A stretch of 55,702 nucleotides of DNA, from the NCBI GenBank assembly GCA_016788905.1, contig JAEURZ010000019.1, forward strand, positions 1 to 55,702, written 5' to 3'. The translations under genes and the position numbers were made by a program. How positions within the stretch are numbered: the first letter of the stretch is position 1; each line of letters opens with the position of its first letter. This document shows positions 17 through 31,662 of this stretch, in pieces. The notes under the pieces are model-generated. The model did no database searches. It was not told the DNA's origin and saw nothing but the letters and a program-made list of their open reading frames with translations. Origin of the DNA: Elusimicrobiota bacterium (GTDB taxonomy: Bacteria; Elusimicrobiota; Elusimicrobia; FEN-1173).

Positions 17-56
17 AAACTGTTACCCATGTACCCGGTCTAAAGTGTTACCTATC
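17..56. repeat. Possible insertion-sequence end (two short direct repeats)
   Basis: Two near-identical 10-mers, TGTTACCCAT (21-30) and TGTTACCTAT (46-55), are separated by a GTACCCGGTC-type spacer. Multiple short terminal repeats of this kind are seen at the ends of IS481/IS21-like elements. No transposase is visible because the window ends here. The block lies exactly where homology between the truncated paralogue and the giant gene stops, and it supplies that paralogue's stop codon (52-54). The IS assignment is from memory of similar termini and is tentative. Confidence 0.3.
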
Positions 57-1479: not shown

Positions 1480-1505
1480 TGCTCCCCTTGACTTCGGATC
1501 CAACG

Positions 1506-1585
1506 TATCCTGCCGTTCAAGAGCCCACGCCTACCCTTAAATCTACTATAGAGACCCGGCTTTTTGCCTTAAGAACTTGTAAATC
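1506..1585 (-). promoter_or_regulatory. Conserved 80-nt leader/promoter, copy A
   Basis: This differs at only three of 80 positions from the block upstream of the giant gene (19378-19457), which makes it better conserved than the coding sequence that follows. On the minus strand it contains a -10-like TATAGT (1545-1550) about 65 nt before the start codon. There is no convincing -35 hexamer at 17 bp, where CTTAAG is found. A small GGC-AAAAA-GCC hairpin sits just upstream of the -10. It could be a duplicated promoter, a structured 5' leader, or both. Confidence 0.55.
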
Positions 1586-1952
1586 AATTGTAACCTGCAT
1601 TTTCGAGTCTAATGTTATAGTGCAATGCTCTGGTCAAAATGGGGAAAACAGGATGGGGAAAAAGGCTCGTCAGAAAAACAAGCAGGCCCGATAAGGCTCC
1701 GCAATTCCGGGGCCAAAGATTTTTATTCGTTCTATATTTGATTTTCATCGTGATCTTGCCGGGGTGGGTTGGCTAAAGAATGTGTTTGGTCCATGTCGGG
1801 AGCGGCACCGGACCAGAACTGCCTGTTTATGCCTTCGGGCACAATATTCCTGACAAATCCCGAGGGCGAGAACAGATAAAAACAGCTGTTTACCCCACAT
1901 GGGCTCCCCCTTCTAGACATCACCCGCCCTCCCGCGAGGAAAATCTGTCGAC
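1586..1952. other. Spacer between giant gene and truncated paralogue
   Basis: These 367 bases hold no gene I can support. Short open frames exist on both strands (a 63-codon one on the minus strand at 1732-1923), but they have no ribosome-binding site and atypical composition. A short palindrome, AAACAGCTGTTT, followed on the minus strand by TTAT (about 1874-1889) lies downstream of the giant gene. It is the only terminator-like structure here and is weak. Confidence 0.5.
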
Positions 1953-4900
1953 TTAGGCCTGTTGGTTGAAGACCTGAATTTTTTGTTTCTCTTCTTCGAT
2001 CATTTCCAGCGGAGTCGAAAGGGCCCTCAACCGAACCTGCCCCTTTTCCATTTTCAGCTGGCCATTCGACAGCTCCACCGCGGCCTGGGCGGCCGCACCG
2101 GTGTACACAATATCCACTTCAACACGGGTTAAGTCGGTTAATAGTTTTGCGGCAAAGACCACCAACGGCATTCCCAAACCCGCCCAAAATTCCACCGCGC
2201 TCGCCGGGGCCACCACGTTAATGTGAGAAGAAGAAAGTTCCTTCAACCGTGCCGTAAGAACCGCGGGGGCCGCTCCGACCACGCCCACCGTGATTTGATC
2301 GATGGCCACCTGATCAAGATTCGATTGGGCCGCCAGTTCCCGGAACGCCTTTGTGACGCGGGCCACATCCGCCGCGGATGGATTTCCGTTCACCACAAAT
2401 TCCACGTGGAGGTGCGCTTCCTCCCCGGCCCCAACCCCATGAGAGAGAGAGATCAATCGATCCAATAGAATTTTTCCTTCCGCCAATCCCAATTCTTTCC
2501 GCATATCCACCACCAACGCGTTCCCCGTGGCCTGCACCCCAGGCACAGCCAAGAAACCAGATCCCCTCTCGAAAGACGGCAGATAAGGGGGTATGTTATA
2601 TCGGAAAGGAGTGATTGCCACTCCAGCCCGAATGGGCACAGCGGCCAACGTCATGGCCAACAGCACCGGTACTCCCACAGAGGAGAGGGAACCGCTCGTC
2701 CCCACGCCCACGGACCCCACGACCCCGGCCCCTACCACTCCCGCTGCCCCCGCCACTCCCACCACACCAAGCACTATAGCCACCAGGAGCGCTGGTGTTT
2801 TCAAAATTTGCTCCGCCGCCCAAGACCCAAAATTGATCCCACTTTGAGTGAGCCTCATAAATCCGGTCTTCATTCCTTGGAGCTCTCTCCCCAGCACAAC
2901 CCCAGGACGAAAGGGCCCAACGGAGAAAACCCTTATTCCAAAAAACATTGCGGCAAAACTCAACCCATAGAGGACTAAACTTCCAAACGGGAGCCCCACT
3001 CCCGCCGCCAGATGCGCAAACAGAAACAACACCAGGGAAGTGCCCAAGATGGATTGGGCCTGGGGAGGAATGTTTCGGGTGGCTTCATAGAGTTTTAACT
3101 CATCAGATAATTTTTGTCGCGCCATCTCTAGTTGAGATTCCAAAATACGTTCTTCCGATGTCAACGGTCGATTAAGAGCGGTTTTCCATCCGATTCCCTC
3201 ATTCCACTGCTCCCCCGCTCTTCCTTTAATAAGGGGAAGGAGTTCCTCGTCCGTCATCGAATCCAGATCTTGGGGGCCCACATCCATGACCACAGGCCCA
3301 TAGGGCAAATTCAATTTCGTCTTCAGCCCAGCGACCACAGCCCCCACACGCAACCGCATGGGAGCACCCGTCACCACACCCACCCGGGGCGTGCCAATCC
3401 CTAACCCGAGGAGGGCAAGTTGACCTGACGTGTTATCAAAATTTTCTTCGAGATTCGACGAGGCCTTGGATTCTTGGCGAATGACGTCATCCGGAATCCC
3501 TTCTTTTTGAAGAACGAAACGCAGAAGATCGGCTTCGGTCAAGGATTCAGCGTCGATTGGGTTTGCCTTTCTAACCGAGTCCCTCAACGTTTGTGTGAGC
3601 TGAAGGGCAATCTGATTTTCATCAACAGAATAGTGCTTCGTAATGGCGGCCAAGAGTCCCGCCGTCCCCGCTCCCCGCCCCCCCGCGAGGACAATGGGAA
3701 TTCCTTGAAACTCTTCTTTCCAGCGGGCGGCGAAATCCCGAACAGCCTGGGGGAAGGGATTCCCCAAAACAAGAAATGCCGTTGGCGGCTGACCGGCCAT
3801 GTCACTCCCCCGATTCAATTGATCAAAAAATGCGGAGGCGGCCTCGTTCAATCGATTTCGATCCTCCACTGATTTCCCATGACCCGGCACCCCAGAACCC
3901 CGCCTCTTCGAGGAAAACCCAAACCACTTCAATAACCGTCGAATAAATCCAGGGTCTTTTTTCACAGGCGCCTTGGGCGTCGGAGCGATGGGGCGGTCGG
4001 TCTTTATTCCAAGAATTTTAGGACCATCCGGGCCAAACATTTTAATCGGAGTCGCCCCCAGGGTATATTCAAATCGACCAATCACCTGACCCGGCGTGTA
4101 GGTTTCCGGCTGAACATTAGCGGAGATCCAAACGTTGGCATTTTTAATTTTGGGGTTCCGAGAGCGCTGAACAAACCCCTGGGGAACAAAATCGTTAGGA
4201 TTCATATTATTAGACAGAAATATGAACGTGGTGGGATTGTAACGCTTTACTTCGGGTCGATCGATTTCAAGAGACAGAAGGCGCCCAGGCCCCAGAGGTC
4301 TGGGATTTTCAAACAACATTCGCTCCTGAACACCCAAGTCACCCTTGATTAAGGTGGATGGGGAGCCTGCATACAAAACCACATCGCCTTGGGAATCGCC
4401 TCGGATATTCATCGAAACGAATTGACCCGCTTTAAATGCTTCGTGATTCTTGATCCGAACCGGATCAAATTTGAAGGGTTTGCGAGCGATGGCCGTAAAC
4501 GCCACGTCCATCAAGGGGGCTCCTTCTCGCGCATAAAACTGAATCCTGAAATCATCCGCCGTCCAATTGCCAACGCCGTCCGTCAACACGCCCGTCAATG
4601 TCAACCCCCCTTGCCCGTTCAGCGAAATCTCTTTGATTTCTGAAATGGGGGTTCCATGGTGGTAACGTCCTTCGGACCAATAACCTGGGGTGACCCATTC
4701 TGTTCCGGGATCCATTCCGGGAGGGATCGATTGAAGAAAACCATTCCCCCTCACGTTGAACGTATATTCGGCGTTAAGAGAGATGAGCAACTCGGAAAAG
4801 GATCCCCAGGGGGTCTGCATGGGGGGAATTTCAGTATGGGAATCGGAAATTCCCCTCACACGCCACCCCTCTTCATTAAGGAGAACAGTTTCCCGAGGAG

Positions 4901-7900
4901 CCACCTCAGTCGTCTTTGCGGCAACAGAGACCGAATCGCTTCTGGAACTCAGCGCCAGAGCCCCGGGAACATTCCCGAAGGTCAAGAGACCTCCCAGGAC
5001 AAAACTCAAGAGGAGTCCGGGAAGAATCTTCCCTGGGGTATTGTTTTGCTTATTTTTCCGTTTGAAGATGTTCCACCGCCACGCCATCAACCCCGCCACC
5101 CCCAATCCCAAAAGCACCGATTGCCAGAAGAATGAGGTCTGGGGAGCGGACACCGGGGGGGAGACCACGTCCGCTGTTGGTTGTGTTTGAGTAATACCAG
5201 GAGGCAGAGGCCCATCGGGAGAAACGGAACTTACAGAATAATTGACGTGGACGCTCGAACCTTTTGGGAGGGCAAAATTTGTTTTGCCATCACTTTCCAG
5301 TAACGGCGCGACCGCCACATTGGGGCTTTGGGGGAACAGTAAGGGTTCCAATGTGTAAGTGGCTCCCATACGCGCGGGATAAACCGCTCCTTCGGCGGAA
5401 GAGACTTCCACCCCGTTCACCGTGATCGTCACCGCCGGGGAGTTGTGGCGGCGGGATCCACTCAATGTCACCTCCCCTAAGGGGCTTTCAAGGAGGTTGG
5501 TCGAGGTCCCAAGAACCCCGGGGGGTAAATCCGAAAGGGAAAGATCGCGAACCACATCCCCCCGGGCGGAGGTGATTTGAAGGGACTCAGAAACATAGGG
5601 CCGAATTTCGGCTTCGGCCACACTCCGTGTTGTAGAAATAGAACTGACTTGTCCCATGGGTTTCATGTAATCCAAATCAAGATTTTGGGAGGCAACCCAA
5701 GTTCCTCCCACATTTGCCACGGTGCGACCGTCCTCATATGCAAATGTCATCGTGTAATCTTTCATGGTGAGGAGACCCTTAGGATCCTGAACCGTTGCCT
5801 GAAGAAGCAATTTACCACTGGCATCGATAGAGTAACGAATGTCGCTCAAGCGCCCCCCATGCACGTATTCGGATGCTTTTCCGGGAACCTCATGAAAATA
5901 GCCCCCAAGTAAGATCGGAGGCCCTTCAGAAAGGGGGTATTGCACGCCCGCCCCACCAGGAACCGGTGGAGGGAACAACGTATATGATCCTTTCTCCAAA
6001 TCCATTTGGGAAATAACATATCCGTTGTAGAGGATCTGATGCACAGGTCTTTCATCCGATCCTTTGACGTAGACCTGATACCCCCCAGCGTCAAAAAGGA
6101 CATGGGGAGCCGTGAAGGGTTTAAAAGCGTAGGGAACCTCGGACACCACGGAACGCCAATCCGCCAACAACTTGGGGTTCGTCACATCGGCCACCAAGAC
6201 GTTGGGGTTCACAATATAAAATGCCACTAACCCCGACGCTAACGCCACCGACGCGGGGAACAAGACTTTTCCCTCGCCACGTCGGAAGGCACGCAGACCG
6301 AATCCCATACCGAGGAGTGCCGCGAGAAGTAAAATTTCCCGGTAACCATCATTCCTTTCATCGATCCCGGATACGTAAGATTTTTCCAAACTTTTCGCCA
6401 CAAGCAAGAGGTAATCCTTCTTTTCATTTAAGCTGGCAAGATTTTTTTTAAGCTGATCAATTTGGATCGTATAGCCTTCGACCTGGGTAATCCGCCCCTC
6501 CCTGTCGGCCGCCGTGCGCTCTTTTATTAAAAGTGCGATGGCTTCTTCCACCTGTCGAATTTCATCCTTATAGGGGTTGACCTCCCCTCGGATAGTGGGC
6601 GCAGCTAACAGATCCTCAACAATTTGGCTAAAAGACATGCTCCGCGCCTTTTTTTCCCACTGATCCAAAACATCTTTATCGGCGGGGACACGCTCATCCA
6701 GGTAGATCCCAAAAAGGGACCCATACACCGCTTTGACAATTGTTCGAGACATCCAAGGGGAATTAACACGTTTTTGTTTGACTTCGATGCGGTCACCCAA
6801 ATCCCCCAGGGGCCGCCCCACCAACCGGGTTTCGGCCATCTCCCGGGCCAAGGCTTCGTAAAGAACAACGGCCGAATCAATCCTAAACTTTAAGGCAGAC
6901 CCCCCTTCACGGGTCAAATAATCCGAGTAATCCCGCAGAATATTGGGAATGTGTTTTGAGAATCGCTCCATAAATTCCGGACTGATCTTGTCATTTAGCG
7001 TAAGCATCATGGCATAGCTGAATTCAACACCTTCGGCCGAATACTCGTTAGCGGTGCGCAGTTCGTCTAAGGCCTTGGACAACTCAGGGATATTGCGAAT
7101 GAACTGAAGATTTTTATAGAAACGATCGATAAACTGCTCAATGGAATGAACATCATGTTCGGCCAAGAAACGGGCAATCTCCGGATTCCCATCGCTGGAA
7201 AAAACGAAGTAGTCAATAATAGCGAACTTGAGGGCGTAGTTATTGATCAGCCCATTGAGCTGGCCAATCTCCATGGCGTCATTCAGGCTCTGCACACGGA
7301 TGAGAGCGTCCTTGTAATGCTTTGTTTTGAGGTGCGTTTGTGTTTTGGCATAAAGGGACAAGAGTCCCTGCGTGGTCAGTCCTTTGAAAACGGGTTCTCC
7401 CCCCTCATCAATCCGCTCAACCATCTGTTTCAGAATATGAGCCGTGATGAACCCCGTGTCTAATATATATTGGCTGGCATCAATTTCCGGTCGGACAAAG
7501 ATCAGTCGTGCTTCAGGACCTCCATCCCCCTCATCATTTTCCGGATTCACAACGGAATCGGTATTTTTGGGTTTTCGAACGACCAAACGAGACTCAATAA
7601 TCGACGCATCTTTCCGAAGATTTTCCCGCAGGGTCTTTAAATAATTCCCCAACTCTCCCGCATAGCGGGCCCCATGGGTCAGCTCCTCCGGAGAAAGGAA
7701 AGTTCCCTTGAGCTCGTCATACGAGGCTTCGAGCACATCGATATAACCCGAAAACAACTCGTAAAAACGCCCTTCCTCCATGATCCCCAGTTCGTGCATG
7801 CGCCCCACCCACTTCTCATTTTCCCCCAAGATTTCGAAAATGGGCCTTAATTTCGGATAAACGTCGACGCCCGCTTCAGTTTTCCGACGGATTTCGGAAT

Positions 7901-10900
7901 GGACATATACCAAAGCCTTCATGGCTTGTTCAATCTGGGGAAGATCCGCCTTCAGGTTCAATGTGGGCTGATTAGAATCCGCCTCCGGGAGCCCGGTCAG
8001 CATGGAGTAGGTCTGGGCGATGCCCGCTATTTTCTGAAAGATAAAGAAATTGAGAACTTCGACGGGCACTCCCACAGGGACTACCGATTCTTGTTTAATA
8101 ATGGTTTCAAGTTGCTCGCGAAGGGGCTTTCCTTGGAATTTCGTTTCGGGGGCTAACAGTTTTGTTCCCATCAAACCATTCACATCCTTTAAACGCATGA
8201 TGCGGATCTCATCCTTAAACTGCCCTCCCTGGGACCCAAAAACATAGCCCCCGGTCACTAAACTTTCAATAAAACCTTCTTTATCGAAAGGAAGGTTTTG
8301 GAATTTCTTTTCAACGTAAAAAAGATGGTGGTAAGCTAGATAACGTTCCGCGATGGTCTTATATTGGACGGGATAGCCGGGAAATTTCTTTAGGGCATCC
8401 AACATCATTTCCGAAATCCCCATGACGCCATTAAAGGTGTGAATGGGATGACCCGCCTGAAAAAAGATTCCGGATTTGGACCTGATGTCTTCATTGATGA
8501 TCTCAAGGAAACGGGGCCCTTCTCCCCCGGGAGACTTAATATAGGATTGAAAATCTTTTTGGTCCATGAGAAATTCCACTTGTCTCAGACGGGGATAGAA
8601 ATACTCTTTCCAAAATTCGGCATATCCCCACTTTTGCTTAAAGAGCGCCACCATATCCACAAATCCTTCCTCCCGATAGGGAACAAACCGATAGGTTTGG
8701 CCGCCATCGGCGCTGTATTTGGCGCCCTGGGCAAAATGGTCCCAGGTGTCCACAAACTGGGCCATCCACCCCTGGGGGGATAACGATCGATCGGCAAGAG
8801 GCCCGTCTTTCCGCATGTCGTTGAATTCAGCGTTAACGATAAGGTTGGCCAGGGACCGCAAAGCCAAGAAATCTTTTCCCCGTTCTGTCATGCGTTCCCG
8901 CGAACTTTCGCTAAGCAATTCAACTCGGATGGCACGATAATGGGAAAATTCGGGTGTTTTCGTGATACCGGCTTCCGATTGTAAAATCTGTTCGAGTTTT
9001 TTAAATACCACACGCGAATGACCCATGTAACTACCCACATCGAATTTGTTCGCCTCGGTCGATTTTTTTTCCAAGAGGAAGATCTGAATCGCTTCATTTT
9101 CAAGGATGCCAGACTCTTTCTCGATGTAGTCGCGTACGCCCGGAAGGTCCTCCGCCTGTTGATAAATCGCCGCGATGTGCCCCATTAAGATTTTCCCCGC
9201 CTCTCTAATTTGTCTCAGGTGGGAAGGACCGTAGGCCCCCAGGGGCTTGGGGGCCTGGACATTATAAAGAGCCGCATCGGCCAATTCGTAGTAGGCTCGA
9301 AGAGATTGAAATTTAAGATCTTCAGGTTTAATGGTCACCCGAGTAGCTCCCGCAGCCCTTTGGCTCGCCGCCATACGGATTCGAAGCGTGTTCACGAAGG
9401 CCGGGGGAAGCGTTTCATAGAGGCCCGCATTCCACAAGTCATTAATAGGCTGCAAAACGAACCCCTTCACTTCCCGGGCAAATCCGGATCCCGGATCAAA
9501 TGTCCCATTCATTCCATTGACTTCATATCCGGCCACCACAAAAAATTCCTTGAATCCCACCGCTGAGGAGGGCAGCTGTGGGAGCGTCGCAAAATAGGTG
9601 TCGTAGGCAATGGACCGCTGGGCCATGGCCAGGATCAGTTTGGCGGCGAAAGCAGGATCCTTGGAATATCTCTTTTGGAGATGGGGAAACGCTCGGAGCG
9701 TGGCATCCACCAACTGGGCCACACTTTTTATCGCATTGAACTGACGAACGTCGGCATCTCTAATGGTGATCCCCATGGCCTTTTCAATTTCGCCGTTCAC
9801 TTTATTACTAAACACCGCCCAGGAAGGATCGGCCTGAAGGGTTTTGAGAAGGGCAGGGGAAGCGCTCCATTTTGCCCAATCGGCAAGAATCGGCAGTTGG
9901 TTTTCATCCCAATATTGTTTCTCAGTAACTTCCGGATGGTCCGACTTCGTTTTAAGCCAGTGCAGGAGGTGGGACGCCAAGATGCCGGGTTTGTCAGGCA
10001 AGCGATAGTCCGCCACCCGTTTTTTTACAAGGAGAAGTTCCCTCATTATTTCTTGGGGTGTGTAGGGCTGGCCGTCAGGTGTCAGCACATGATTGATCCC
10101 TAAGTTAAGGGAAAGCATGGCCAAATCCCGCAGGGCATTGTATTCCTTGGCCGCATCGGTCATTCCACGGGTCGTTTCAGCGGGGAACAAGGACATGACA
10201 TAGTCTATATAGGCCGGTGAAAGCCGTCCCCCGTCCCGATCCAACCCACGCCGTATGGATTCAGCGGTGCGAAGCCCATCCAGAAAGATCCGGTTGTACT
10301 CTCTACTTTTGGCCGAATCATTTTCCAAAAGGTACCGGAGGATGCCTTCCACCTCCAGGATTCCCGGCTCGAACTTCATGTAGCGCGCGTATACGACCGG
10401 CGCCTCCATTTGAGCAATGGACTGAACGTCGGTCAAGTGGGCCGCCACCTTTAGAGCGGCTTGCCGGATGCGCGCCGGATCCGTGGCCTCCACCCCGTTT
10501 CGGTTAAAGAGGGCGATACGGCCTAAGTTGTATTCCGTTTGAAGGTAAGCCAAGCGGATGTCTTTGTCCGAGGGGGTTTTATGAAGTTTGGCCATATCCC
10601 GTACCATCCGTTCCCGCACCAACGTTTCCAGGGCTGGGTAGGGTTTCGATTCCAAATGAACCCGGATATAATCGGCCCCCACACGCTTTAAAAATTCCGC
10701 AACATAGTTCTCTCCCGAAGAAGCGCGGAGATCGGCCTCATTTTTCTTTAACAACTGCGTAAAGAACTCCCGCATCCCACCGGGCTCTTGGTAAAAAGCC
10801 CCAATCATCGGGATCATTTCCAACCGCAGATCAGATAACACTGGAATCTGAATGGGGAGGAAAAAGGTAATATTCCCCACCACCCGCATCAGTTTAGACA

Positions 10901-13900
10901 CGGGGCGAGGAAGGAATTCCATGGGAGTAATATTCGCGTTGGGAACCGCGGCGTTCCAGGCCGTTTCCAATTCATGGGATAGACGGATAAAGTGCCAAAC
11001 CCGGGCACCATCTATTTCATCCAGAGGAACGCCCATACCGTAATGGAGATTTAACACCGCCGCCGATATAAGCTCATATTTGTCCATCGAACCTGAAACT
11101 CGATCCGCCAAGGATCGATAGTCTTCCTCCGATAGAAGAACCGTTCCATTGCGCGGGTCTTTCAGGGTCCGTCCCGCTTCCACAAAGGGGGTGTAGTCCA
11201 CGTCCCACACATCCTTGACCTTGGTCCAGAGCAAGAGATCGGCGATTTCCTTCATGCTCTTTACCGCCCTCTCCTCCCCCGGTTTTTCCTCAGCGTTTAG
11301 GTCCATCAAAAGAGCTGTTTGGGCCCAGTATTTTGCCACCATGGGTTCTTTCATCCAAGGGTAATCCATGGTGGCCAATACGTTGGCGTAGGTGGCCCAA
11401 TCCGCGGCCTTGAAGATATTTCCCAAACCCGGAACCAGGGTCAAAAGCGCCGTGCTACCGCCGTAAATCCCAAGGTTTTGCTTTTTAACGGCACTGCTGT
11501 TCATCCGGTCCAATTGGGAAAGCAGATACGCCAATTTTTCCGTTTGAGATTCCGTGAGTTTTGGTTTTTCAAGCAACGCCAGGGAATTGACGGGGTCAGC
11601 CTGGAAGGAGGTGTAGCCCTGGGTTGTCACCATCGGAAGCCGAGGGCGAGGATCAGGTTGCGACGTTAAGGTGAAATGATCTGGCGAAGAAACAATTGTG
11701 ATAGGAATCCCCGCCCCAATATTTCGGGCCGGCTGATGAACCCGCGGCGCCACGGTCAAGATGGAATTCAGCTTTTCAATTTCCAAAGCTGGAACAACAT
11801 TTTTAAAAACAGGAATCCCGCTCAGCAAAGGGGGCGGCCGAGTCAAGGGGCTGGCCATCTGCGTGGTCACCAATTCAGCCGGCGGAGGGGGCCGCAAGCT
11901 TTCCGTGTCGAAGTAGGTTCGAACATAGTTCACGGGAGACAGGAAGATCAGACTGGCCACAAAGAAAGCCACGCCATAAACCTTGATGGTCTGAATAATC
12001 TTGGTCCGACGATTGGTCACGCGGAATGGAACCCCCGACAGATGCCCCAAATACCACCCCACCCCCTGGGAGGCCAGAAGAGGCATGGGGCCCATGGGCC
12101 AGAGAACCGCCATGAACGCATTTCCCGCGGCGACAATCGAACTGAAAACGAGAAACGCCATCCCCCCCAGGAAAGGAAGATTCATCTTTTGAGTTTCCTC
12201 CTTCCAGACTTCCTTCAACCGGAAACCCAACATTTCCCGGACGGCCCGGGACGTGGACGTTTTCCAAACGGAAGGGAGACTTTTTAATTCTTCGGCCCAG
12301 GACCGAGGGACAAAAGAGGACCGCTTGATGGCAATGTCCAAGGACATGAGCGTACTCAATAGAACTTTTGGGATAAACAAAGCGAAGTTCCATACAGTGC
12401 GCACAAGCGAATGGCCCCAACGTGCCACGCGACGAAACTTTGGAGTGCTGTGCTGCACCATGGTGACACGGAGAACGTCATAGATGGTGGGGTATAGGAA
12501 AAGCCCTTGCCCCGCCACACCGATCATGACAAACCCCAGCAGCCCCGCAGCCAGCATGGCATTAACTAAGAAAGCCTGGTCCATAAAGAACGCAAGACCC
12601 ACCAAAAACACCACAATGCCTAAAAATCGAGCGTCCCCGAAAAGACGGAAATCGATCCCCATACGGTGAAATTGGTGGGCCGGGGGCAGGGCATCGTGGT
12701 CGTAGGGCGTGGTCGTCAGAAACATTTGGATGTCCCCCCGCAACCAACGAAAATCCCGTTCCATGGCACCGGTCCGCGTGAGGAGGTCCCGTTCAGTGAT
12801 CTCAAAAGCCCCGGACAAATAACGGGACACCCGACGCATGGCGTCCTGGGGGCTTTCTTCGGCAGGGACGGAGAACGTGCGCCACTCATGGAAATTCCCA
12901 TCGGGGCCCAGGAGGGACACTTTGGCCTCCAAAACATCGGCCGACCATATTCCCAACCGACCGAACTCCATTTGAACAAAATCAGTTCGGGACCCCTGGC
13001 GCATGCGGTAGGTGTAGGTGATGGAACGATCCTCCCCGTCTTCTCGGGGGGTTTGATTCACCAGTTCAAACCGGAAAGTCAAGGCCCCATAGACGGATTC
13101 CACAAAAGAAAAAATACTTTCCTGCCAATCGTGGGAAAGGGCCCGGGAAACCACGATGAATTCATTCAAGAAAGCCCGTCCATATTCCGCACGTTTGGCC
13201 AGTTTGCCATACATGGGGGACATCCCACCAAAAAGATTGGCCATGAAGAGGGCCTGGGACTTGTTGTGGATTCGACGGGCTTCATCCAAGGAATTCAGAA
13301 AAACACTGGTGACCGAACCCCCGATCCGTCCCCCCCGGGTGGTCATGGGGGCATCCACGCTGATCATAGGGTTGAACCCAACGACTCCATAATTTTCCGG
13401 ATGTTCGGCTGTGGATATCACCGCTTCCACGGCACCTTCCACAATGCTGTTTTTGTCATCCAACACCAGGGACAAGTCATTGGGGTAAAGATCCTGCCCA
13501 TTGTTGTCGAAAAATCGATCCGTATAGGGGTCGGCCATGTGAACAGCCAACATCTTATTCGCATCGGCCAATGACAGTTGTTCCTTATGCCCCCCAACCT
13601 CTCGATCCACCACGCCCCAGGCAGAAGGGCGAATCGTGTAGGTGATTTCCCCCCCATCCACCTGGCGAACCCGGACAGCTCCACCGAAATAGCCCAGGAG
13701 ATCCCCGGCAAAAACGTTCGCTCGGGGGAAAATGGGGGCGTCGGGATTAGTGAAATTTTCGTGGGCCACTGGGTTCGTATAAGCGGGGGGACGAGTGAAT
13801 CCCATCTTTAACCACTCCAACCCCGCCACGTTACCAAGCTTCTTTCCCCACCCCGCTGTTTTCCAAGGGATGACGAGGTCCGTGGTTTCCCTAAGACGCC

Positions 13901-16900
13901 GAATCTGTTGAATGGCCTCCCCCCGGGAAAGGGTTTCCACCGAACGCGCTCCTCCCGCGGTAGTGTGCGTATGCACAATGCCTTCTGATGTCAAACGGAA
14001 ATGGTCGCGCTCTCCCCCCTGGGCAAACAACGTAAAGGTTTTTGAATCGAGACTGGCAATGGGATCCTGATCATTTAATTTCTTCTTCCACCCTTCCCTG
14101 TCTATGGCAGATTGGTCCATCCATTCAATCCCTTGACTGAGATAAAGGAATCGGACTCGCCCAGGACCAAACCGCTGGTCCGCCTCAGCCTGAAGGTTTT
14201 GAATCAATTCCATCTCATAGGGAATGAGAGGGAGATAATTCGTGTTGGACGGCATGACGAAAGAAACAGAAAAGGCATCTCCTGAATCTCGTAAGGTTTG
14301 GGCCAGGGCATCCATGTCTCTCCGGCGGTAGGCGGCCCACACGTCAGCCTCCAAATGGAAAGTGTCCAGGTACCGGGTGGTCATGTCCATGTTTTGCCGA
14401 ATTTCTCCGGCATAGTCCCTTTCCACCTGAAACCGTAAAGTCAGAGCGGGTACCGCTTCTCCCTCGTCTAAAATTTTCTCCCCCATCCGAATAATTTGGG
14501 AATCTTCAATGGCCAGGTTGTAATCGCTCTTTAAAATATCCCCCAGAGCCTCTCGAGCGGAAGAAAGATCTTTTGCACTCGCTCCGAAATCAAGAACATG
14601 AATGTCCACATGGGATCCGGCAACAATATCCAAATCGGATAAGGAGTGTATTCCAAGTCTCCGACCAGCCACTTTGTTCAAGCTTCGGCTCAAATTATCC
14701 ACAACGGGACCATCGTCGGGGAAAACTTTCATATACATCCCCAAAGACTTCCCTTCTCTATCTTTCTTTTCAAAGAATTCCACCCTCACATGAAGGCGAA
14801 ACCCACTCCAAAATTTCAATTGGACAAACCGTGTTAATGAATCTTTTTGCGAATCGGTAAACTGGGGCGGAAGGGAAACAGCCGACCAGGGATTACCAGA
14901 AAAATCATGTTCTGTTTTGAGCGTTTTGAGGTCATTTCCATGCAATGAAAAGAAAGGAACAATAACATCATCTTTTATGAAAGGGTCGAGGGGATTTCCC
15001 GACATTTTTGGCACTTCAATGGAAAAAGCGTAGGGACGACCATGGTCAGCATAAAACTGCCTGACAAAAGAGAGAAATTCCACCCGACGATGGCCCTGGG
15101 GCGCCAGGGAATCAAAAAAGACGGACAAGAACATGAGGAAGGTCACCAGCATCGGCAAGACCACGGTTTTCGTCACAGAATAAAGCAACGGAAAAAGGAC
15201 CACCCAGCTCACAACGACGAGAACCGGGGAGGGAAAGAAGAACACACTAAACAAAAAGAGGAAGGCAAATCCCACGCGAAGAATCTTCGCGGAGCTCAAA
15301 AAGAAGATGGCGGTGGTGGAAGCGATAACTCCCTGAGGGATAAGTTTGTCCTGGTAAAACTCATAGGTCCTTCGGGCCGCCCGCCACATCACTTCCCGTT
15401 GATCTCTTAATTCGTCCTGGCCGCCTAAAACCTCTGGCTCGAACCGATCGAACTCTTCCAAAAACGCATTGAGAATGTTCCGTTGAATCCCAATTCGAAG
15501 GTTCAATATGGACCGTTCAATGGCCTCCCTTTCTTCACGAAGATGAGCAAACGCGCTGCGTGAGGAATCTTCCAGAACGGTCTCGTCCCTGTTTCCTAAG
15601 GTCTTCAGTTGGGCCTTCACCTCTTTCAATCGGGCCGACAGTTCAGCAAGTTCTGGATTCGCCTTTTCAGCCTGGCGGGTACGCCTTTTTATCTCGAATA
15701 TTCCAATATACGATATCAACCGACCATGGGACCCGTAGTTGTTATAGCGCGGGAAAATGGAGGCTTTTTTCGCTTCAATTTCTTCCACCAATTCCCTTCG
15801 CTTTTTCATCGCGTCAGGATTATTTTGTTTGGCCAAATCACGCCATTCTTTGCGAAGCGCCCGAAAATCCTGCCGGGTCCAATAAAGATATTGTCTCAGG
15901 ACTGGGGTCCACCAGCGGACGGGGAACGTGCGGGGCCCTTTCTTTAATTCATCGGCAATTTTTTGAGCGAGGGATTGGGGTGTTTTCGAAGCATTTCGTC
16001 GACGAACAATGGAAATTAATCCTCCAATCCCTCCAAAAAGGCCCGCGAGCCAAGCCGCCAGAACCACCGGAGGATTGGTGGTGTTCCCGCCCGCTGAAAG
16101 GGTAGGAACTTCACTAGCAACAGGTTCTTCGTTCCCGCTCGAAAGGGGCGGAGAGGAAACCCCCTCGGGCTCAGATGTCTTCACCGCGGGAACCGCTGGA
16201 GGAAGAGCGGAAGGGGCCGAGTCTGGGCTAATGGTCGGGACAGGGGCAACGGGTTCAACGACGGACACCGACAAGGTAGCGGCCGGGGAAGGCACGGCGG
16301 ACGGAGCCTCCGCGGGACTGGATGGGGCAGCCACCTGGGGGGACTCGATGGGGGGCGTTTCCGGGGCAGGGGAGAGGACATAGGCTCCGTTTTCAACGGA
16401 AACCTTCACGGCCGCCGCACCACCTCCGGCATTGTCCGGACGTTGGAGATGTTGCCCAGGGAATATTTTGGCCAGATCGATTCCAGGATTTTCCGATACA
16501 TACTGTTCCACACGTTCCGCCACCATTCTGTTGGTGACCTTAGCGGCACCACCACTTTTGAGATCGTCACGCGCGATAGACCAAACCCTGTCTCCATTTT
16601 CAACCAACACATAGGCCCCATTGTCGATCAACTGGGCCGCTTCGGCCGTTTGCAAAACCGTTGCGGGTAAGACAATGGAAAAAGCTAATAAAACAGGAAG
16701 GATATACTGGCGCCACCCCTTGAGGTTTTGGCGTGCAACGGATCCCTGTCCGCGAACCACCTGGCGCATCTCATAGAAAGGGAGGCTGAGGAAGATGGGA
16801 ACCACAAATGATTTAAGGCCTTTGAACCAGAACTCCGCCCATTTTTGTTTTTGTATAGTTAACGAAGCTATAAAGGATGAAAGACCAATGGACCCGCTTA

Positions 16901-19352
16901 AAGCCAACCGTCGCCCCCAACCAAAAACGGCGCCCCGATTTGACACTGCCTCAGAAACCTTTTGGACAAAACGTTGGGTAGCAACGGGAACCACGGTCTC
17001 CCCCATTTGGTGGACCATCTCGGCGCCTTGTTGGGAAGCGGGAATAATGGAAGAATTCAGGCTGTCTGGAAGACCTTGAATGGCCTGAATCGCCTCCATT
17101 CTCAGCTGAGCAACGGTTTGGGATCCACTAGCTTCCGCAAGAGCTTGAAAAGATTTTAAGAAGGTCGCCCACGCCTGCCCCAACCCCTGAGCCGCCAGTA
17201 ACCCCGCCAACTTTTTGTTGAGACTAACCGCATCCTTTTGATTCAGGTTATCCTCCCGCATCCATTGGATGGTGGAATCTTTACCCAGGGAACCCGCCAC
17301 CACAAAAAGTTCTTCGCCGTACCGACCAAAAATGACCACCTGGAGTTCGCCGTTGGCGTCTTTTAATGATAGAACGCGATCGAACTTCAGGGGAACCCCC
17401 TGGGCTTCCAAAAGAGCCTTATTCGCTTGCAAAAGCGATAGATGTTTCTCTTGATCAACCTTTGACAATCCGGATAACTTGATGAAAGAGAGGAGGAAAT
17501 TTTCCGTCATCATCCGGGCCGTCAGTTCCTGTTTAAGAGGGAGAGAACCCGCCGGGTTGAAAACCGCCAGGTTGGCTTCACGGGCAGAGTTTGAAAAAGC
17601 GTTAGGCGCCTGAGAAATGGTCAGTTCGTCGGAAGATCGGTGGGACTCTGTGTCAAAGCTGGGCTGGACCACCGCGTAAGAAGTCCCGGATTGACGCAGA
17701 AGCCGCGTGAGACCCGGCGTATGAAACCCACCCGCAATCAGAACGCCTCGTTTTGCGCCTGTCCGTTCCATATCCGCCAGTGCGTTGTTGACCAAAGTCA
17801 TATCCCGGTCCAAGGCCAGTTCATAAAAAGCACGCACTTTCGGGAGATGCCGCGTCCAAGCAAGAGATTCAGGAATCGTCCCATCCACCCCCACCCTCTC
17901 CCGTCCTTCGGACACCCTCTCCCGCGAGCGGGAGAGGGATGGGGAGAGGGTGGGGGTGAGGTTCGAGCTTGAATTCAAGCGGGCCGATGAACCTTGGGTT
18001 AAGAAACCCAACCGGGATTCCTGTTCCGTCACATATTTTTCAATTTCCACCCAATCCAGGGGCCCCTCTTGTCGAAACGCGGCGTATTGGTCCGGGGTCA
18101 TCTCCTGTTTCCAGAGCAGTCGTTCCAGCGAAACCCGACGGTCGGTGTTCACCAGGCGCCACACGTGATCGTCTCCGGAAAACTTTTCCAAGAGCCGGCC
18201 GCGCCATTGTTCAGCCTCCACTAAAAGCTTGTCGTGTTGAAGGGAATCCGCAAGTTTGAGGTACCCCACATAGTTTTGAAGTTCCCGAGTGGGGAGGTCC
18301 TGGCCCTGACGTTTAAGCTGGTCGGCTACGTCCAAAAACGCCTGGTAGAAATCCTTCTGTTTCATCCGACCGTCCCGAACCTCCACGGCCTTAGCCACCA
18401 AATTTTTTCCCGCGTCCAGAGAAAGAGAGCCCACCATTTTCTGCACCAGGATGTCCCGCTCCACCGCGAGGCGCCGCGGATCCATTTCGCGCTCTCTTTT
18501 CGTTAAGAGGAGAAGCGCGTCCACATTGGGGTATTCCCCGGCACGAAAACTTCCCGGGGCCAGTGCGGCCAACGCTTGGACATAGTCGACGAACGAAAGG
18601 GTTTGGTTGGTGTACGCCTGAAACGGTTTGTCCAAAGCCAGGAGAGCTGGGGGGTAAATTTTGGCCTTAAGGAGGCCCAACCGAGACTGAATCCGCCCGA
18701 TATGCACCGCCGCGGTGGCCCGAGCCTGAGCGGTTTCGTGTCGGGCCGCCAGGTTCTTATTAAACAGGTCCACGTTCTCCACCCCGTGTAGCCGAAAACT
18801 TCCGGAGGAAGAAACAATCGCGCGGAACTCCTCGCCGGTCAGATCCCCCTGGCGAAGATGGGCGTGGGCCACACGTTCTTTGATGTCCTCAAAGGGAAAT
18901 GCCGACAACCAATCGATATTCGCAGGGCCCGTGCCCCCTTCTTGATAAACAGGCACCGCCTCCGTCCCGGACCATCCGGCACGGAAAAGCCCCTCCAAAA
19001 CTTTGGACGCGTTGTACTGGGCCCCGTAAACCCCGTGGGCGTCCTGGAGGTGAAGAAGAACCGGGGCCGTTGGGTTGGCCGTGTGGGTTTCCACCACCAT
19101 GCCCAACTTCGACGGAAGACGATAGGCCCCCAGGATGGGGTTAAGGGATTCTTTTGGCCATGAAATAGTGGAGAGAAGTTGGCGGACATCCCCTTGCCCG
19201 GGGAGTGGAATTGTTTGTTCGCGCGCCGCGTGGCGTTCCGCCCAAAAATTAGCTTCCGCAAAGGGCGAGCCCACCGTCGAGAAAAAGAAAGCCGCTGTCA
19301 CCGAGCCCGCGACAAATTTTTTGAGAAAATCTGACGACAGCCGAATGTGCAT
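1953..19352 (-). CDS. Giant 5,799-residue multidomain envelope protein with GT84-like glycosyltransferase core
   Basis: One uninterrupted frame; ATG preceded by AAGGGG. Order by approximate residue: signal anchor (10-30); ChaN/EreA-like domain (95-560) with HLQDAHGVYG at 101 and GGFHTPG near 538, interrupted at 465-489 by an in-frame palindromic repeat; membrane segments (about 810-890); LysM-like domain (905-965, ENGDRVWSIA then PGQHL); Pro/Ser-rich linker (990-1085); membrane segment (1091-1118); helical stretch; membrane pair (1337-1414); glycosyltransferase region (1650-2220) with VLDDKN near 1965, SHDWQES at 2072 and RWLRGDIQ at 2201; membrane segments (2235-2480); long helical region (2585-4310); membrane segments (4336-4384); two beta-rich domains (4385-4735 and 4800-5110) around membrane segments (4737-4800); DUF218 domain (5187-5325); membrane/Gly-Val-rich segments (5434-5580); C-terminal domain. 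SHD-E and RWxRGDxQ match cyclic beta-1,2-glucan synthase (NdvB, GT84) signatures as I know them. The inferred role is synthesis or export of a cell-surface glycan at the inner membrane. No GH94 phosphorylase domain was recognised. Confidence 0.8.
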   Translation of the reverse strand: MHIRLSSDFLKKFVAGSVTAAFFFSTVGSPFAEANFWAERHAAREQTIPLPGQGDVRQLLSTISWPKESLNPILGAYRLPSKLGMVVETHTANPTAPVLLHLQDAHGVYGAQYNASKVLEGLFRAGWSGTEAVPVYQEGGTGPANIDWLSAFPFEDIKERVAHAHLRQGDLTGEEFRAIVSSSGSFRLHGVENVDLFNKNLAARHETAQARATAAVHIGRIQSRLGLLKAKIYPPALLALDKPFQAYTNQTLSFVDYVQALAALAPGSFRAGEYPNVDALLLLTKREREMDPRRLAVERDILVQKMVGSLSLDAGKNLVAKAVEVRDGRMKQKDFYQAFLDVADQLKRQGQDLPTRELQNYVGYLKLADSLQHDKLLVEAEQWRGRLLEKFSGDDHVWRLVNTDRRVSLERLLWKQEMTPDQYAAFRQEGPLDWVEIEKYVTEQESRLGFLTQGSSARLNSSSNLTPTLSPSLSRSRERVSEGRERVGVDGTIPESLAWTRHLPKVRAFYELALDRDMTLVNNALADMERTGAKRGVLIAGGFHTPGLTRLLRQSGTSYAVVQPSFDTESHRSSDELTISQAPNAFSNSAREANLAVFNPAGSLPLKQELTARMMTENFLLSFIKLSGLSKVDQEKHLSLLQANKALLEAQGVPLKFDRVLSLKDANGELQVVIFGRYGEELFVVAGSLGKDSTIQWMREDNLNQKDAVSLNKKLAGLLAAQGLGQAWATFLKSFQALAEASGSQTVAQLRMEAIQAIQGLPDSLNSSIIPASQQGAEMVHQMGETVVPVATQRFVQKVSEAVSNRGAVFGWGRRLALSGSIGLSSFIASLTIQKQKWAEFWFKGLKSFVVPIFLSLPFYEMRQVVRGQGSVARQNLKGWRQYILPVLLAFSIVLPATVLQTAEAAQLIDNGAYVLVENGDRVWSIARDDLKSGGAAKVTNRMVAERVEQYVSENPGIDLAKIFPGQHLQRPDNAGGGAAAVKVSVENGAYVLSPAPETPPIESPQVAAPSSPAEAPSAVPSPAATLSVSVVEPVAPVPTISPDSAPSALPPAVPAVKTSEPEGVSSPPLSSGNEEPVASEVPTLSAGGNTTNPPVVLAAWLAGLFGGIGGLISIVRRRNASKTPQSLAQKIADELKKGPRTFPVRWWTPVLRQYLYWTRQDFRALRKEWRDLAKQNNPDAMKKRRELVEEIEAKKASIFPRYNNYGSHGRLISYIGIFEIKRRTRQAEKANPELAELSARLKEVKAQLKTLGNRDETVLEDSSRSAFAHLREEREAIERSILNLRIGIQRNILNAFLEEFDRFEPEVLGGQDELRDQREVMWRAARRTYEFYQDKLIPQGVIASTTAIFFLSSAKILRVGFAFLFLFSVFFFPSPVLVVVSWVVLFPLLYSVTKTVVLPMLVTFLMFLSVFFDSLAPQGHRRVEFLSFVRQFYADHGRPYAFSIEVPKMSGNPLDPFIKDDVIVPFFSLHGNDLKTLKTEHDFSGNPWSAVSLPPQFTDSQKDSLTRFVQLKFWSGFRLHVRVEFFEKKDREGKSLGMYMKVFPDDGPVVDNLSRSLNKVAGRRLGIHSLSDLDIVAGSHVDIHVLDFGASAKDLSSAREALGDILKSDYNLAIEDSQIIRMGEKILDEGEAVPALTLRFQVERDYAGEIRQNMDMTTRYLDTFHLEADVWAAYRRRDMDALAQTLRDSGDAFSVSFVMPSNTNYLPLIPYEMELIQNLQAEADQRFGPGRVRFLYLSQGIEWMDQSAIDREGWKKKLNDQDPIASLDSKTFTLFAQGGERDHFRLTSEGIVHTHTTAGGARSVETLSRGEAIQQIRRLRETTDLVIPWKTAGWGKKLGNVAGLEWLKMGFTRPPAYTNPVAHENFTNPDAPIFPRANVFAGDLLGYFGGAVRVRQVDGGEITYTIRPSAWGVVDREVGGHKEQLSLADANKMLAVHMADPYTDRFFDNNGQDLYPNDLSLVLDDKNSIVEGAVEAVISTAEHPENYGVVGFNPMISVDAPMTTRGGRIGGSVTSVFLNSLDEARRIHNKSQALFMANLFGGMSPMYGKLAKRAEYGRAFLNEFIVVSRALSHDWQESIFSFVESVYGALTFRFELVNQTPREDGEDRSITYTYRMRQGSRTDFVQMEFGRLGIWSADVLEAKVSLLGPDGNFHEWRTFSVPAEESPQDAMRRVSRYLSGAFEITERDLLTRTGAMERDFRWLRGDIQMFLTTTPYDHDALPPAHQFHRMGIDFRLFGDARFLGIVVFLVGLAFFMDQAFLVNAMLAAGLLGFVMIGVAGQGLFLYPTIYDVLRVTMVQHSTPKFRRVARWGHSLVRTVWNFALFIPKVLLSTLMSLDIAIKRSSFVPRSWAEELKSLPSVWKTSTSRAVREMLGFRLKEVWKEETQKMNLPFLGGMAFLVFSSIVAAGNAFMAVLWPMGPMPLLASQGVGWYLGHLSGVPFRVTNRRTKIIQTIKVYGVAFFVASLIFLSPVNYVRTYFDTESLRPPPPAELVTTQMASPLTRPPPLLSGIPVFKNVVPALEIEKLNSILTVAPRVHQPARNIGAGIPITIVSSPDHFTLTSQPDPRPRLPMVTTQGYTSFQADPVNSLALLEKPKLTESQTEKLAYLLSQLDRMNSSAVKKQNLGIYGGSTALLTLVPGLGNIFKAADWATYANVLATMDYPWMKEPMVAKYWAQTALLMDLNAEEKPGEERAVKSMKEIADLLLWTKVKDVWDVDYTPFVEAGRTLKDPRNGTVLLSEEDYRSLADRVSGSMDKYELISAAVLNLHYGMGVPLDEIDGARVWHFIRLSHELETAWNAAVPNANITPMEFLPRPVSKLMRVVGNITFFLPIQIPVLSDLRLEMIPMIGAFYQEPGGMREFFTQLLKKNEADLRASSGENYVAEFLKRVGADYIRVHLESKPYPALETLVRERMVRDMAKLHKTPSDKDIRLAYLQTEYNLGRIALFNRNGVEATDPARIRQAALKVAAHLTDVQSIAQMEAPVVYARYMKFEPGILEVEGILRYLLENDSAKSREYNRIFLDGLRTAESIRRGLDRDGGRLSPAYIDYVMSLFPAETTRGMTDAAKEYNALRDLAMLSLNLGINHVLTPDGQPYTPQEIMRELLLVKKRVADYRLPDKPGILASHLLHWLKTKSDHPEVTEKQYWDENQLPILADWAKWSASPALLKTLQADPSWAVFSNKVNGEIEKAMGITIRDADVRQFNAIKSVAQLVDATLRAFPHLQKRYSKDPAFAAKLILAMAQRSIAYDTYFATLPQLPSSAVGFKEFFVVAGYEVNGMNGTFDPGSGFAREVKGFVLQPINDLWNAGLYETLPPAFVNTLRIRMAASQRAAGATRVTIKPEDLKFQSLRAYYELADAALYNVQAPKPLGAYGPSHLRQIREAGKILMGHIAAIYQQAEDLPGVRDYIEKESGILENEAIQIFLLEKKSTEANKFDVGSYMGHSRVVFKKLEQILQSEAGITKTPEFSHYRAIRVELLSESSRERMTERGKDFLALRSLANLIVNAEFNDMRKDGPLADRSLSPQGWMAQFVDTWDHFAQGAKYSADGGQTYRFVPYREEGFVDMVALFKQKWGYAEFWKEYFYPRLRQVEFLMDQKDFQSYIKSPGGEGPRFLEIINEDIRSKSGIFFQAGHPIHTFNGVMGISEMMLDALKKFPGYPVQYKTIAERYLAYHHLFYVEKKFQNLPFDKEGFIESLVTGGYVFGSQGGQFKDEIRIMRLKDVNGLMGTKLLAPETKFQGKPLREQLETIIKQESVVPVGVPVEVLNFFIFQKIAGIAQTYSMLTGLPEADSNQPTLNLKADLPQIEQAMKALVYVHSEIRRKTEAGVDVYPKLRPIFEILGENEKWVGRMHELGIMEEGRFYELFSGYIDVLEASYDELKGTFLSPEELTHGARYAGELGNYLKTLRENLRKDASIIESRLVVRKPKNTDSVVNPENDEGDGGPEARLIFVRPEIDASQYILDTGFITAHILKQMVERIDEGGEPVFKGLTTQGLLSLYAKTQTHLKTKHYKDALIRVQSLNDAMEIGQLNGLINNYALKFAIIDYFVFSSDGNPEIARFLAEHDVHSIEQFIDRFYKNLQFIRNIPELSKALDELRTANEYSAEGVEFSYAMMLTLNDKISPEFMERFSKHIPNILRDYSDYLTREGGSALKFRIDSAVVLYEALAREMAETRLVGRPLGDLGDRIEVKQKRVNSPWMSRTIVKAVYGSLFGIYLDERVPADKDVLDQWEKKARSMSFSQIVEDLLAAPTIRGEVNPYKDEIRQVEEAIALLIKERTAADREGRITQVEGYTIQIDQLKKNLASLNEKKDYLLLVAKSLEKSYVSGIDERNDGYREILLLAALLGMGFGLRAFRRGEGKVLFPASVALASGLVAFYIVNPNVLVADVTNPKLLADWRSVVSEVPYAFKPFTAPHVLFDAGGYQVYVKGSDERPVHQILYNGYVISQMDLEKGSYTLFPPPVPGGAGVQYPLSEGPPILLGGYFHEVPGKASEYVHGGRLSDIRYSIDASGKLLLQATVQDPKGLLTMKDYTMTFAYEDGRTVANVGGTWVASQNLDLDYMKPMGQVSSISTTRSVAEAEIRPYVSESLQITSARGDVVRDLSLSDLPPGVLGTSTNLLESPLGEVTLSGSRRHNSPAVTITVNGVEVSSAEGAVYPARMGATYTLEPLLFPQSPNVAVAPLLESDGKTNFALPKGSSVHVNYSVSSVSPDGPLPPGITQTQPTADVVSPPVSAPQTSFFWQSVLLGLGVAGLMAWRWNIFKRKNKQNNTPGKILPGLLLSFVLGGLLTFGNVPGALALSSRSDSVSVAAKTTEVAPRETVLLNEEGWRVRGISDSHTEIPPMQTPWGSFSELLISLNAEYTFNVRGNGFLQSIPPGMDPGTEWVTPGYWSEGRYHHGTPISEIKEISLNGQGGLTLTGVLTDGVGNWTADDFRIQFYAREGAPLMDVAFTAIARKPFKFDPVRIKNHEAFKAGQFVSMNIRGDSQGDVVLYAGSPSTLIKGDLGVQERMLFENPRPLGPGRLLSLEIDRPEVKRYNPTTFIFLSNNMNPNDFVPQGFVQRSRNPKIKNANVWISANVQPETYTPGQVIGRFEYTLGATPIKMFGPDGPKILGIKTDRPIAPTPKAPVKKDPGFIRRLLKWFGFSSKRRGSGVPGHGKSVEDRNRLNEAASAFFDQLNRGSDMAGQPPTAFLVLGNPFPQAVRDFAARWKEEFQGIPIVLAGGRGAGTAGLLAAITKHYSVDENQIALQLTQTLRDSVRKANPIDAESLTEADLLRFVLQKEGIPDDVIRQESKASSNLEENFDNTSGQLALLGLGIGTPRVGVVTGAPMRLRVGAVVAGLKTKLNLPYGPVVMDVGPQDLDSMTDEELLPLIKGRAGEQWNEGIGWKTALNRPLTSEERILESQLEMARQKLSDELKLYEATRNIPPQAQSILGTSLVLFLFAHLAAGVGLPFGSLVLYGLSFAAMFFGIRVFSVGPFRPGVVLGRELQGMKTGFMRLTQSGINFGSWAAEQILKTPALLVAIVLGVVGVAGAAGVVGAGVVGSVGVGTSGSLSSVGVPVLLAMTLAAVPIRAGVAITPFRYNIPPYLPSFERGSGFLAVPGVQATGNALVVDMRKELGLAEGKILLDRLISLSHGVGAGEEAHLHVEFVVNGNPSAADVARVTKAFRELAAQSNLDQVAIDQITVGVVGAAPAVLTARLKELSSSHINVVAPASAVEFWAGLGMPLVVFAAKLLTDLTRVEVDIVYTGAAAQAAVELSNGQLKMEKGQVRLRALSTPLEMIEEEKQKIQVFNQQA
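17888..17956. repeat. Nested palindromic repeat inserted in frame in the giant gene
   Basis: The outer arms, 17888-17902 (CCCCCACCCTCTCCC) and 17942-17956, are perfectly complementary. An inner 11-bp stem, 17915-17925 with 17928-17938, has a 2-nt loop. The element is translated as a Ser/Arg/Glu-rich segment beginning LTPTLSPSLS. Related copies are at 47043-47078 (inner stem plus right arm) and 71-87 (half of the right arm). It behaves as a dispersed repeat that has entered coding sequence without breaking the frame. Confidence 0.75.
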
Positions 19353-19377: not shown

Positions 19378-19457
19378 TATCCTGCCGTTCAAGAGCCCGC
19401 GCCTACGCTCAAATCTACTATAGAGACCCGGCTTTTTGCCTTAAGAACTTGTAAATC
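19378..19457 (-). promoter_or_regulatory. Conserved 80-nt leader/promoter of the giant gene, copy B
   Basis: This matches 1506-1585 at 77 of 80 positions. It has a -10-like TATAGT at 19417-19422 and the same GGC-AAAAA-GCC hairpin. The identity falls away on both sides, in the spacer to the ATG and beyond the GATTTACAAG edge. A duplicated functional leader is the simplest reading. I considered and did not adopt a c-di-GMP (GEMM) riboswitch call. Confidence 0.55.
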
Positions 19458-19603
19458 TTTTGTAAACTTATTTTTCCCCTACATCCCCCTAAAAACCAAT
19501 GGCTTTCTACCCGGAACAAGGGACTTTGGCCAAAGGGGTCGCTATTGTACAATTATGCAACGTTTCCGCCATTTGGCTTAAAATGAAATTATTTTTTGGT
19601 CGG

Positions 19604-31588: not shown

Positions 31589-31662
31589 TGGCCCGTACGG
31601 GATTCGAACCCGTGATTTCCGCCTTGAGAGGGCAGCGTCCTGGGCCACTAGACGAACGGGCC
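31589..31662 (-). tRNA. tRNA-Glu (anticodon CTC)
   Basis: The 74-nt cloverleaf has a GGCCCGT/ACGGGCC acceptor stem, discriminator A, anticodon stem CTGCC/GGCGG with loop CTCTCAA (anticodon CTC, positions 34-36) and a T arm with GGTTCGAATCC. The sequence follows the usual Glu tRNA pattern. No CCA is encoded. It lies between the two long operons and has its own promoter. Confidence 0.95.

Follow-up and report, generated by a model that had tools for sequence, protein, structure and literature searches.

A reading frame of 5,799 codons in an Elusimicrobiota genome raises the question of whether so long a bacterial gene is real and, if it is, whether it is a one-off mosaic of domains or one member of a larger set. 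Giant ORFs in Omnitrophota, Elusimicrobiota and other PVC-related phyla were reportedly the subject of a 2023 preprint by West-Roberts. In the parts of three published papers at hand, the giant ORFs of these phyla are known and are called poorly conserved (PMC10066038, PMC11573180, PMC12057145). The frame analysed here lies in a stretch of 55,702 nucleotides (the window), which is contig C19 of a 2.51-Mb genome that is 99.9% complete (G000, hereafter the own genome); its features are collected in Table 1.

The giant frame and its relatives

The original prediction, made from the letters alone, had placed a single coding frame at 1953-19352. These coordinates are exact; no strand had been given, and the frame sits on the minus strand, the plus-strand reading being ruled out by many stops in its translation. 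No internal stop interrupts the 5,799 codons, a length that is stop-free by chance with log10 P of about -95. The GC contents of the first, second and third codon positions (0.59, 0.42 and 0.58) differ in all 400-codon blocks, as they do in the neighbouring genes. The claim of one long coding frame is thus borne out. Searched in pieces, the ORF matched zero Pfam families at E<=0.01 (a single chance match stood at 0.042), and NCBIfam gave nothing significant, with only a weak LysM-type match. An RNA leader of the ORF was considered and rejected, as the sole Rfam match in the window is a tRNA gene at 31589-31662 (-). By eye, the window also holds a REP-type (Y1) transposase-like gene at 52256-53305 (-), which could connect with interspersed repeats.

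Table 1. Features of the giant ORF and of its tandem neighbour, in window coordinates
Feature	Position	Strand	Remarks
Giant ORF	1953..19352	-	5,799 aa, ATG start, stop; codon r begins at 19352-3(r-1)
Operator of giant ORF, 40 bp, 11-bp-phased, GTTTACAAAAGATTTACAAGTTCTTAAGGC...	19428..19467	-	PWM 45.9 bits, training member
Predicted signal peptide, residues 1-33, signal-peptidase-like ...SPFAEA site	19254..19352	-	charge/hydrophobicity pattern kept in 33 heads
Post-signal motif FWAERHAA (family FWxxRRxA), residues 36-43	19224..19247	-	W in 88%, R in 90% of 52 heads
TIKI/ChaN/EreA-like head, residues 60-580	17613..19175	-	D104, H106, E138, R516, H544 invariant; AF2 pLDDT 89.6
Low-complexity, repeat-like in-frame stretch LTPTLSPSLSRSRERVSEGRERVG, head residues 463-490	17883..17966	-	modelled as a disordered loop, pLDDT ~50
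Body, residues 806-5120	3993..16937	-	searched part (801-2300) without relative
Internal signal/TM segment and LysM-like stretch, residues 884-970	16443..16703	-	NCBIfam YneA, E 0.0047
Putative GT84-like core, residues 1940-2230	12663..13535	-	LVLDDKN 1962, AEHPEN 1982, LSHDWQE 2072, RWLRGDIQ 2202
DUF218-like domain, residues 5121-5352	3297..3992	-	common to giants of C27, G005, G017, G008
C-terminal module, residues 5597-5799	1956..2564	-	84% identity to neighbouring giant
C-terminal tag helix, end ...IQVFNQQA-COOH	1956..2030	-	conserved Ala-ended terminus
Operator of neighbouring giant	1556..1595	-	43.4 bits
Head of neighbouring tandem giant	52..1503	-	85% identity to window head; cut by contig end

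Searching the own genome with residues 1-3,000 of the ORF produced 41 matches, of which all but those to the ORF and to its tandem neighbour lie within query residues 1-600. This N-terminal part, the head, stands on about 26 open frames of the own genome that range from 514 to 7,288 aa, and the giants that could be extracted whole total 65,600 aa, or 7.8% of the genome (~8% of its DNA). Among 60 genomes of relatives, 20 have heads, typically with 8-26 matches per genome; the f9 genomes in this search are without them. With a head profile, 54 of 199 Elusimicrobiota genomes proved to have heads; their frames reach 13,472 aa, and the distribution is patchy by family (f1, f2, f5, f6, f15, f19, f21, f22 and f25-f27; none in f11 or f14 genomes among the matches listed). 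In named genomes, 172 head loci come from Elusimicrobia, Omnitrophota and Auribacter fodinae MAGs. The giant ORF is no one-off mosaic and belongs to a multigene family of Elusimicrobiota, whose members have in common a 40-bp operator, a Sec-type signal peptide followed by FWxxRR, a TIKI-type, hydrolase-like head of ~500 aa with intact active-site residues, a divergent body and a C-terminal helix ending in Ala. The head, the operator and the C-terminal end are common to about 26 giants of the own genome. For the part of the body that was searched (residues 801-2300), 22 other genomes contained no sequence relative.

One family member is under purifying selection along its entire length. Congeneric giants of 2,311 and 2,312 aa, from two species of one genus, show dN/dS of 0.26 over 2,250 codons, and every block lies within 0.18-0.32; thus, at least these two giants are functional and constrained end to end. 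Because headed frames (500-13,472 aa) recur in dozens of independent assemblies, and because the congeneric pair is so constrained, misassembly is in practice excluded, and the frame is the real gene that had been proposed rather than an artificial fusion.

The N-terminal head and the C-terminal end

In thirty-three heads, a positively charged n-region (net +2.2) is followed by a hydrophobic core, a signal-peptidase-like site and then E-x-x-FWxxRRxA; given this charge, core and cleavage-like site, the head is predicted to be exported. An N-out topology based on the charges of FWxxRR was rejected, as the net +2.2 of the n-region versus +1.1 after it favours an ordinary signal peptide.

The ChaN/EreA-like domain of the original prediction was upheld by other members of the family: PF04187 (ChaN/TIKI) matches nine of 49 heads at E<=0.01 (best 1.6e-5), the window copy itself being unmatched, and motif and spacing fit a TIKI active site. 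Across 49 aligned heads, which have 20-46% identity to the window copy, D104, H106, Q112, E138, G190, R516, G541, G542, H544 and P564 are invariant. The residues essential in RRSP, a protein of the TIKI superfamily, are E3900-x-H3902, E3930, R4001 and H4030, and D104-x-H106, E138, R516 and H544 of the head align in order and spacing with this E-x-H, E, R, H set (PMC6254334). An AF2 model of the head, made from a 50-sequence alignment, has a pLDDT of 89.6 and places most of the invariant residues after strands 26-30, 61-65, 114-119 and 463-467; judged by the alignments and the model, the two His, two Glu (or Asp) and one Arg that characterize TIKI proteins are, for most residues, found on the ends of parallel strands. 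Foldseek with this model returned nothing below 0.001 from the PDB (EreC, 6xcs, appears at E 0.73), probably because of a long helical insertion, and at the sequence level the head alignment matched nothing in the PDB. Membership of the TIKI superfamily is likely, and the head is a putative enzyme. With this superfamily (TIKI, ChaN, the erythromycin esterases EreA/EreC, and RRSP; PF04187) the head shares an alpha/beta core and the order and spacing of E/D-x-H...E...R...H; it differs in having Asp for the first Glu, in the helical insertion of ~300 residues, in its fusion to giant bodies and in the limited Pfam recognition given above. The LTPTLSPSLSRSRERVSEGRERVG stretch is missing in the other heads of alignment A2; the neighbour copy has the same insertion at the identical site, where that copy breaks.

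The head of the tandem neighbour, at the edge of the window, gives dN/dS of 0.11 against the window head, and the end of contig C27 holds the 7,288-aa body of this giant (L040, L041). Head (C19) and body (C27) are parted by IS-like ends, GGTAACAG.../...GTTACC, so that the break in the neighbouring giant may be due to an insertion element or to nothing more than the assembly. The last 203 residues of the C19 and C27 giants are 84% identical, with a sharp border to 21-34%, and have dS of 0.48 versus about 3. The end module has therefore undergone recombination or conversion.

Ala is the final residue of 68 of 88 distinct headed C-termini (Gln in 13), compared with 15 of 229 control ORFs (Fisher P 5e-36), and this contrast is conservative because at least two tagged controls are own-genome giants missed by the head filter. 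The end motif is -IQA in the class of the window and -ILxAA in distant families, with a helix-like stretch before the final Ala; the Ala-ended terminus is kept even among distant families that otherwise share no C-terminal sequence. One homologous C-terminal domain for all giants was rejected, as iterated HMMs remain in small clusters; because they do not join the C-terminal domains, the common feature is limited to the terminal motif. The AF2 model of the C-terminal module, from a two-sequence alignment, has a pLDDT of 36 and is unusable.

The operator upstream of the giants

Nearly all members in the own genome are preceded by 40 bp in which TTTACAA and CTTAAGG repeats are phased by 11 bp. 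The pattern TTTACA-N5-TTTACA-N5-TTAA, allowing at most two mismatches, has 24 matches in the own genome versus one for the reversed pattern, and 20 of the 24 immediately precede a head encoded on the same strand. A matrix of the 40-bp operator ([TG]TTACAA-N4-[TG]TTACAA-N3-CTTAAGG-N4-CTT) gave 23 matches over 278 kb, every one ahead of giants, and recovered two held-out members (C3c at 40.3 bits and C23 at 33.6 bits). It found no site ahead of C1c or C28 in the own genome; C3a_3385 directly follows another giant. The operator is kept across genera: in other genomes, a site of at least 10 bits occurs within 1 kb upstream of 26 of 41 heads versus one of 359 control windows. Raw counts are mostly enriched in giant-bearing genomes of the class (31 vs 6 in G018, 20 vs 1 in G030), with no clear enrichment in the AT-rich f15 and f26 genomes, G008 and G017, and none in genomes without giants. 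By genome, the operator is present in G001, G004, G009, G018 and G030 and absent from G007, G012, G020 and G031. It was not found ahead of Omnitrophota heads.

Phasing by 11 bp is typical of sites bound by OmpR/PhoB-type regulators, and a dedicated regulator of this type would switch the set of giants on. A PHO regulon was considered and rejected: the operator resembles a PHO box, yet seven pstS loci in five genomes all score under 8 bits. Two further operator sites were noted. One (G000:C11:81154; L260, L271) lies in front of a frame that has a signal peptide but no head; this frame is 3,636 aa or longer and runs off its contig. The other, a perfect copy, precedes a small gene that by eye is response-regulator-receiver-like (G000:C2:18968-18993; L242, L273) and is possibly the regulator or a member of the regulon.

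The shared parts might instead reflect duplication only, with promoter and head copied in front of different genes and neither head nor tail having a common function. The tandem copies, the C19/C27 conversion of the C-terminal 203 aa and the small C-terminal sequence clusters are all in keeping with such copying. Against it, the active-site residues are unchanged in 49-50 heads at only 20-46% identity to the window copy, the Ala end persists in distant families, and the operator is conserved between genera, so that we regard duplication by itself as improbable. The reading we favour, which we hold at about even confidence, is that the giant ORF belongs to a family of Elusimicrobiota whose giant proteins are co-regulated and exported, carry several enzymes and in most cases span the membrane.

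The bodies and the proposed giant-protein system

The GT84-like core that had been read in the body divides the evidence. The DxD, SHDxxE and RWx[RK]GDxQ motifs of GT84 are present in order (LDD at 1962), and among 310 proteins (331 kaa) SHDxxE and RWxRGDxQ occur only in the giant ORF, in an 11,491-aa headed giant of G017 and in true cyclic-glucan synthases. In contrast, the GT84 profile scores 8.2 bits on the window copy after removal of an insert (E 0.05; maximum of 500 shuffles, 1.8) and 3.9 bits with it, neither being significant; on the G017 giant it reaches E 2.7e-4. As profile, phmmer and hhalign comparisons with GT84 were all non-significant, only the motif evidence was kept, which makes a GT84-like core suggestive. 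A PDB sequence search with the region gave no match. Like cyclic beta-1,2-glucan synthase (GT84 plus glycoamylase plus GH94), the ORF has LDxD, SHDxxE and RWxRGDxQ in this order with membrane flanks; unlike it, the ORF has ~93 residues more separating SHDWQE (2073) from RWLRGDIQ (2202), falls short of profile significance and showed no glycoamylase or GH94 domain when PF10091, PF06165 and PF17167 were looked for.

The remaining domains proposed for the body fared unevenly. The LysM-like domain has a weak match, to the YneA model only, which at E 0.0047 falls short of the cut-off of that model. The DUF218 domain is supported through a relative, PF02698 matching one of five aligned relatives at E 8.5e-11 with the window copy below threshold. 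Relatives of this domain have the LG-x-P, GGRG, SxNSxENF and VVT motifs of the YdcF-SanA-ElyC family, from which the window type differs in being set inside giants and in its sub-threshold Pfam score. The many membrane segments were found as expected, with about 15 strong ones by hydropathy only, ambiguous near the C-terminus. In the window member, a GT84-like, glucan-type transferase would work inside and the DUF218 and LysM domains outside, and the most likely net job, held at slightly less than even confidence, would be to synthesise or modify an envelope glycan. The envelope-glycan role originally proposed is plausible for this member; most bodies of the family are unrelated to glycans, and a self-contained machine is unproven.

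Taken together, the headed proteins are not a glycan system. Other bodies in the own genome contain HD, GNAT, CofD, GT4, metallophosphatase, AAA_5, and SH3 with M23 domains, as well as a Lon whose Walker motifs and Ser/Lys are intact and a PEP-utilising enzyme with its His and Cys. In two giants, no clear membrane segment separates the Lon/AAA and HD modules from the signal peptide, so that ATP-dependent domains may end up outside, a point against the reading favoured above. One of the headed giants (L052, G000:C12:48906+) combines a second AAA module with an apparently intact Lon (GPHGTGKT, KDGPSAG, Lys). From its signal peptide to Lon no membrane segment is clear, and this Lon is predicted to be an ATP-dependent protease outside the cytoplasm.

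A constant exported head before variable bodies, one of whose middles is without relatives in 22 genomes, also recalls weapons of predation or host interaction, in which secreted giants with an effector-like TIKI head would deliver their variable bodies to other cells or act on them, an idea put forward for the giants of Omnitrophota. Giants of Omnitrophota have been tied to cell contact in the part of one paper at hand (PMC10066038). This is an unlikely account of the family, as the bodies have many membrane segments and ordinary metabolic enzymes, the Omnitrophota neighbour genes are sugar-metabolic, and Pfam scans of the giants recognise no toxin domain or fold and no immunity-like partner. 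Polymorphic toxin systems likewise join a constant exported N-terminus to a variable remainder; the headed giants differ from them in their multi-domain, membrane-spanning metabolic bodies, in a C-terminus that is constant rather than a variable toxin tip, and in having no immunity genes recognised in these scans.

Several Omnitrophota encode the head as an exported protein of its own (~600 aa), with an exported giant ORF (SIS, DUF4954) directly downstream. One such locus (L094; Pfam-checked, as was L083 in part) reads ROK regulator, GH94 phosphorylase, head, giant, and five others are similar by ORF layout (the set being L083, L090, L091, L092, L094 and L114). In other Omnitrophota and in Auribacter, head and body are fused. 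Genes that are fused in some genomes and adjacent but separate in others are a usual sign of a functional link, and head and body are linked on this ground. The split form beside GH94 lends some support to the suggestion that the giant arose by fusion of an ancestral gene cluster, and runs partly against a single machine, as homologous heads are separate genes there yet fused elsewhere.

Separate head genes would also suit a polyprotein, in which signal peptidase, the TIKI head itself or a peptidase that processes C-termini cuts the whole giant into enzymes and leaves -QA or -AA as the remnant of cleavage. Internal segments that resemble signal peptides and carry A-x-A sites, at residues 884 and 4776, point the same way. 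Inside giants, however, the end motif occurs at chance frequency (IQA observed 21, expected 19.5), by which the version with internal copies is rejected, and the congeneric pair is near-equal in length and evenly constrained. We therefore consider processing of this kind unlikely.

Under the co-regulated, membrane-spanning family that we favour, a Sec signal would put the hydrolase head in the periplasm, and the body would cross the membrane repeatedly so that each catalytic module, on the topology suggested by hydropathy, comes to lie on its proper side. The C-terminus would serve as the signal by which assembly, processing or quality control recognises the protein. The head is probably the common processing or hydrolytic subunit of the family, a role held at roughly even confidence. 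More tentatively, and with clearly less than even confidence, there may be a dedicated giant-protein system, in which two dozen giants answer to one regulator, the exported TIKI-type head and the Ala end serve a shared maturation or assembly route, and any enzyme can sit between them.

The size, signal peptides, many membrane helices and few recognised domains of these proteins are those of the known giant ORFs, and the head, tag and operator, which unify giants of the phylum here, set them apart; the parts of that literature at hand describe no common head, end motif or operator (PMC10066038, PMC11573180, PMC12057145). This suggests a previously unrecognised giant-protein system of Elusimicrobiota. 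Proteins described as having little conservation, few domains and no known function become one testable family and regulon through head, end and operator, which are a sequence handle for finding all members and for asking which regulator, protease or partner handles them. Spending ~8% of a 2.5-Mb genome on regulated, exported giant enzymes is a large and unexplained investment. If true, a dedicated giant-protein system would be a new bacterial way to build membrane-anchored multi-enzyme assemblies.
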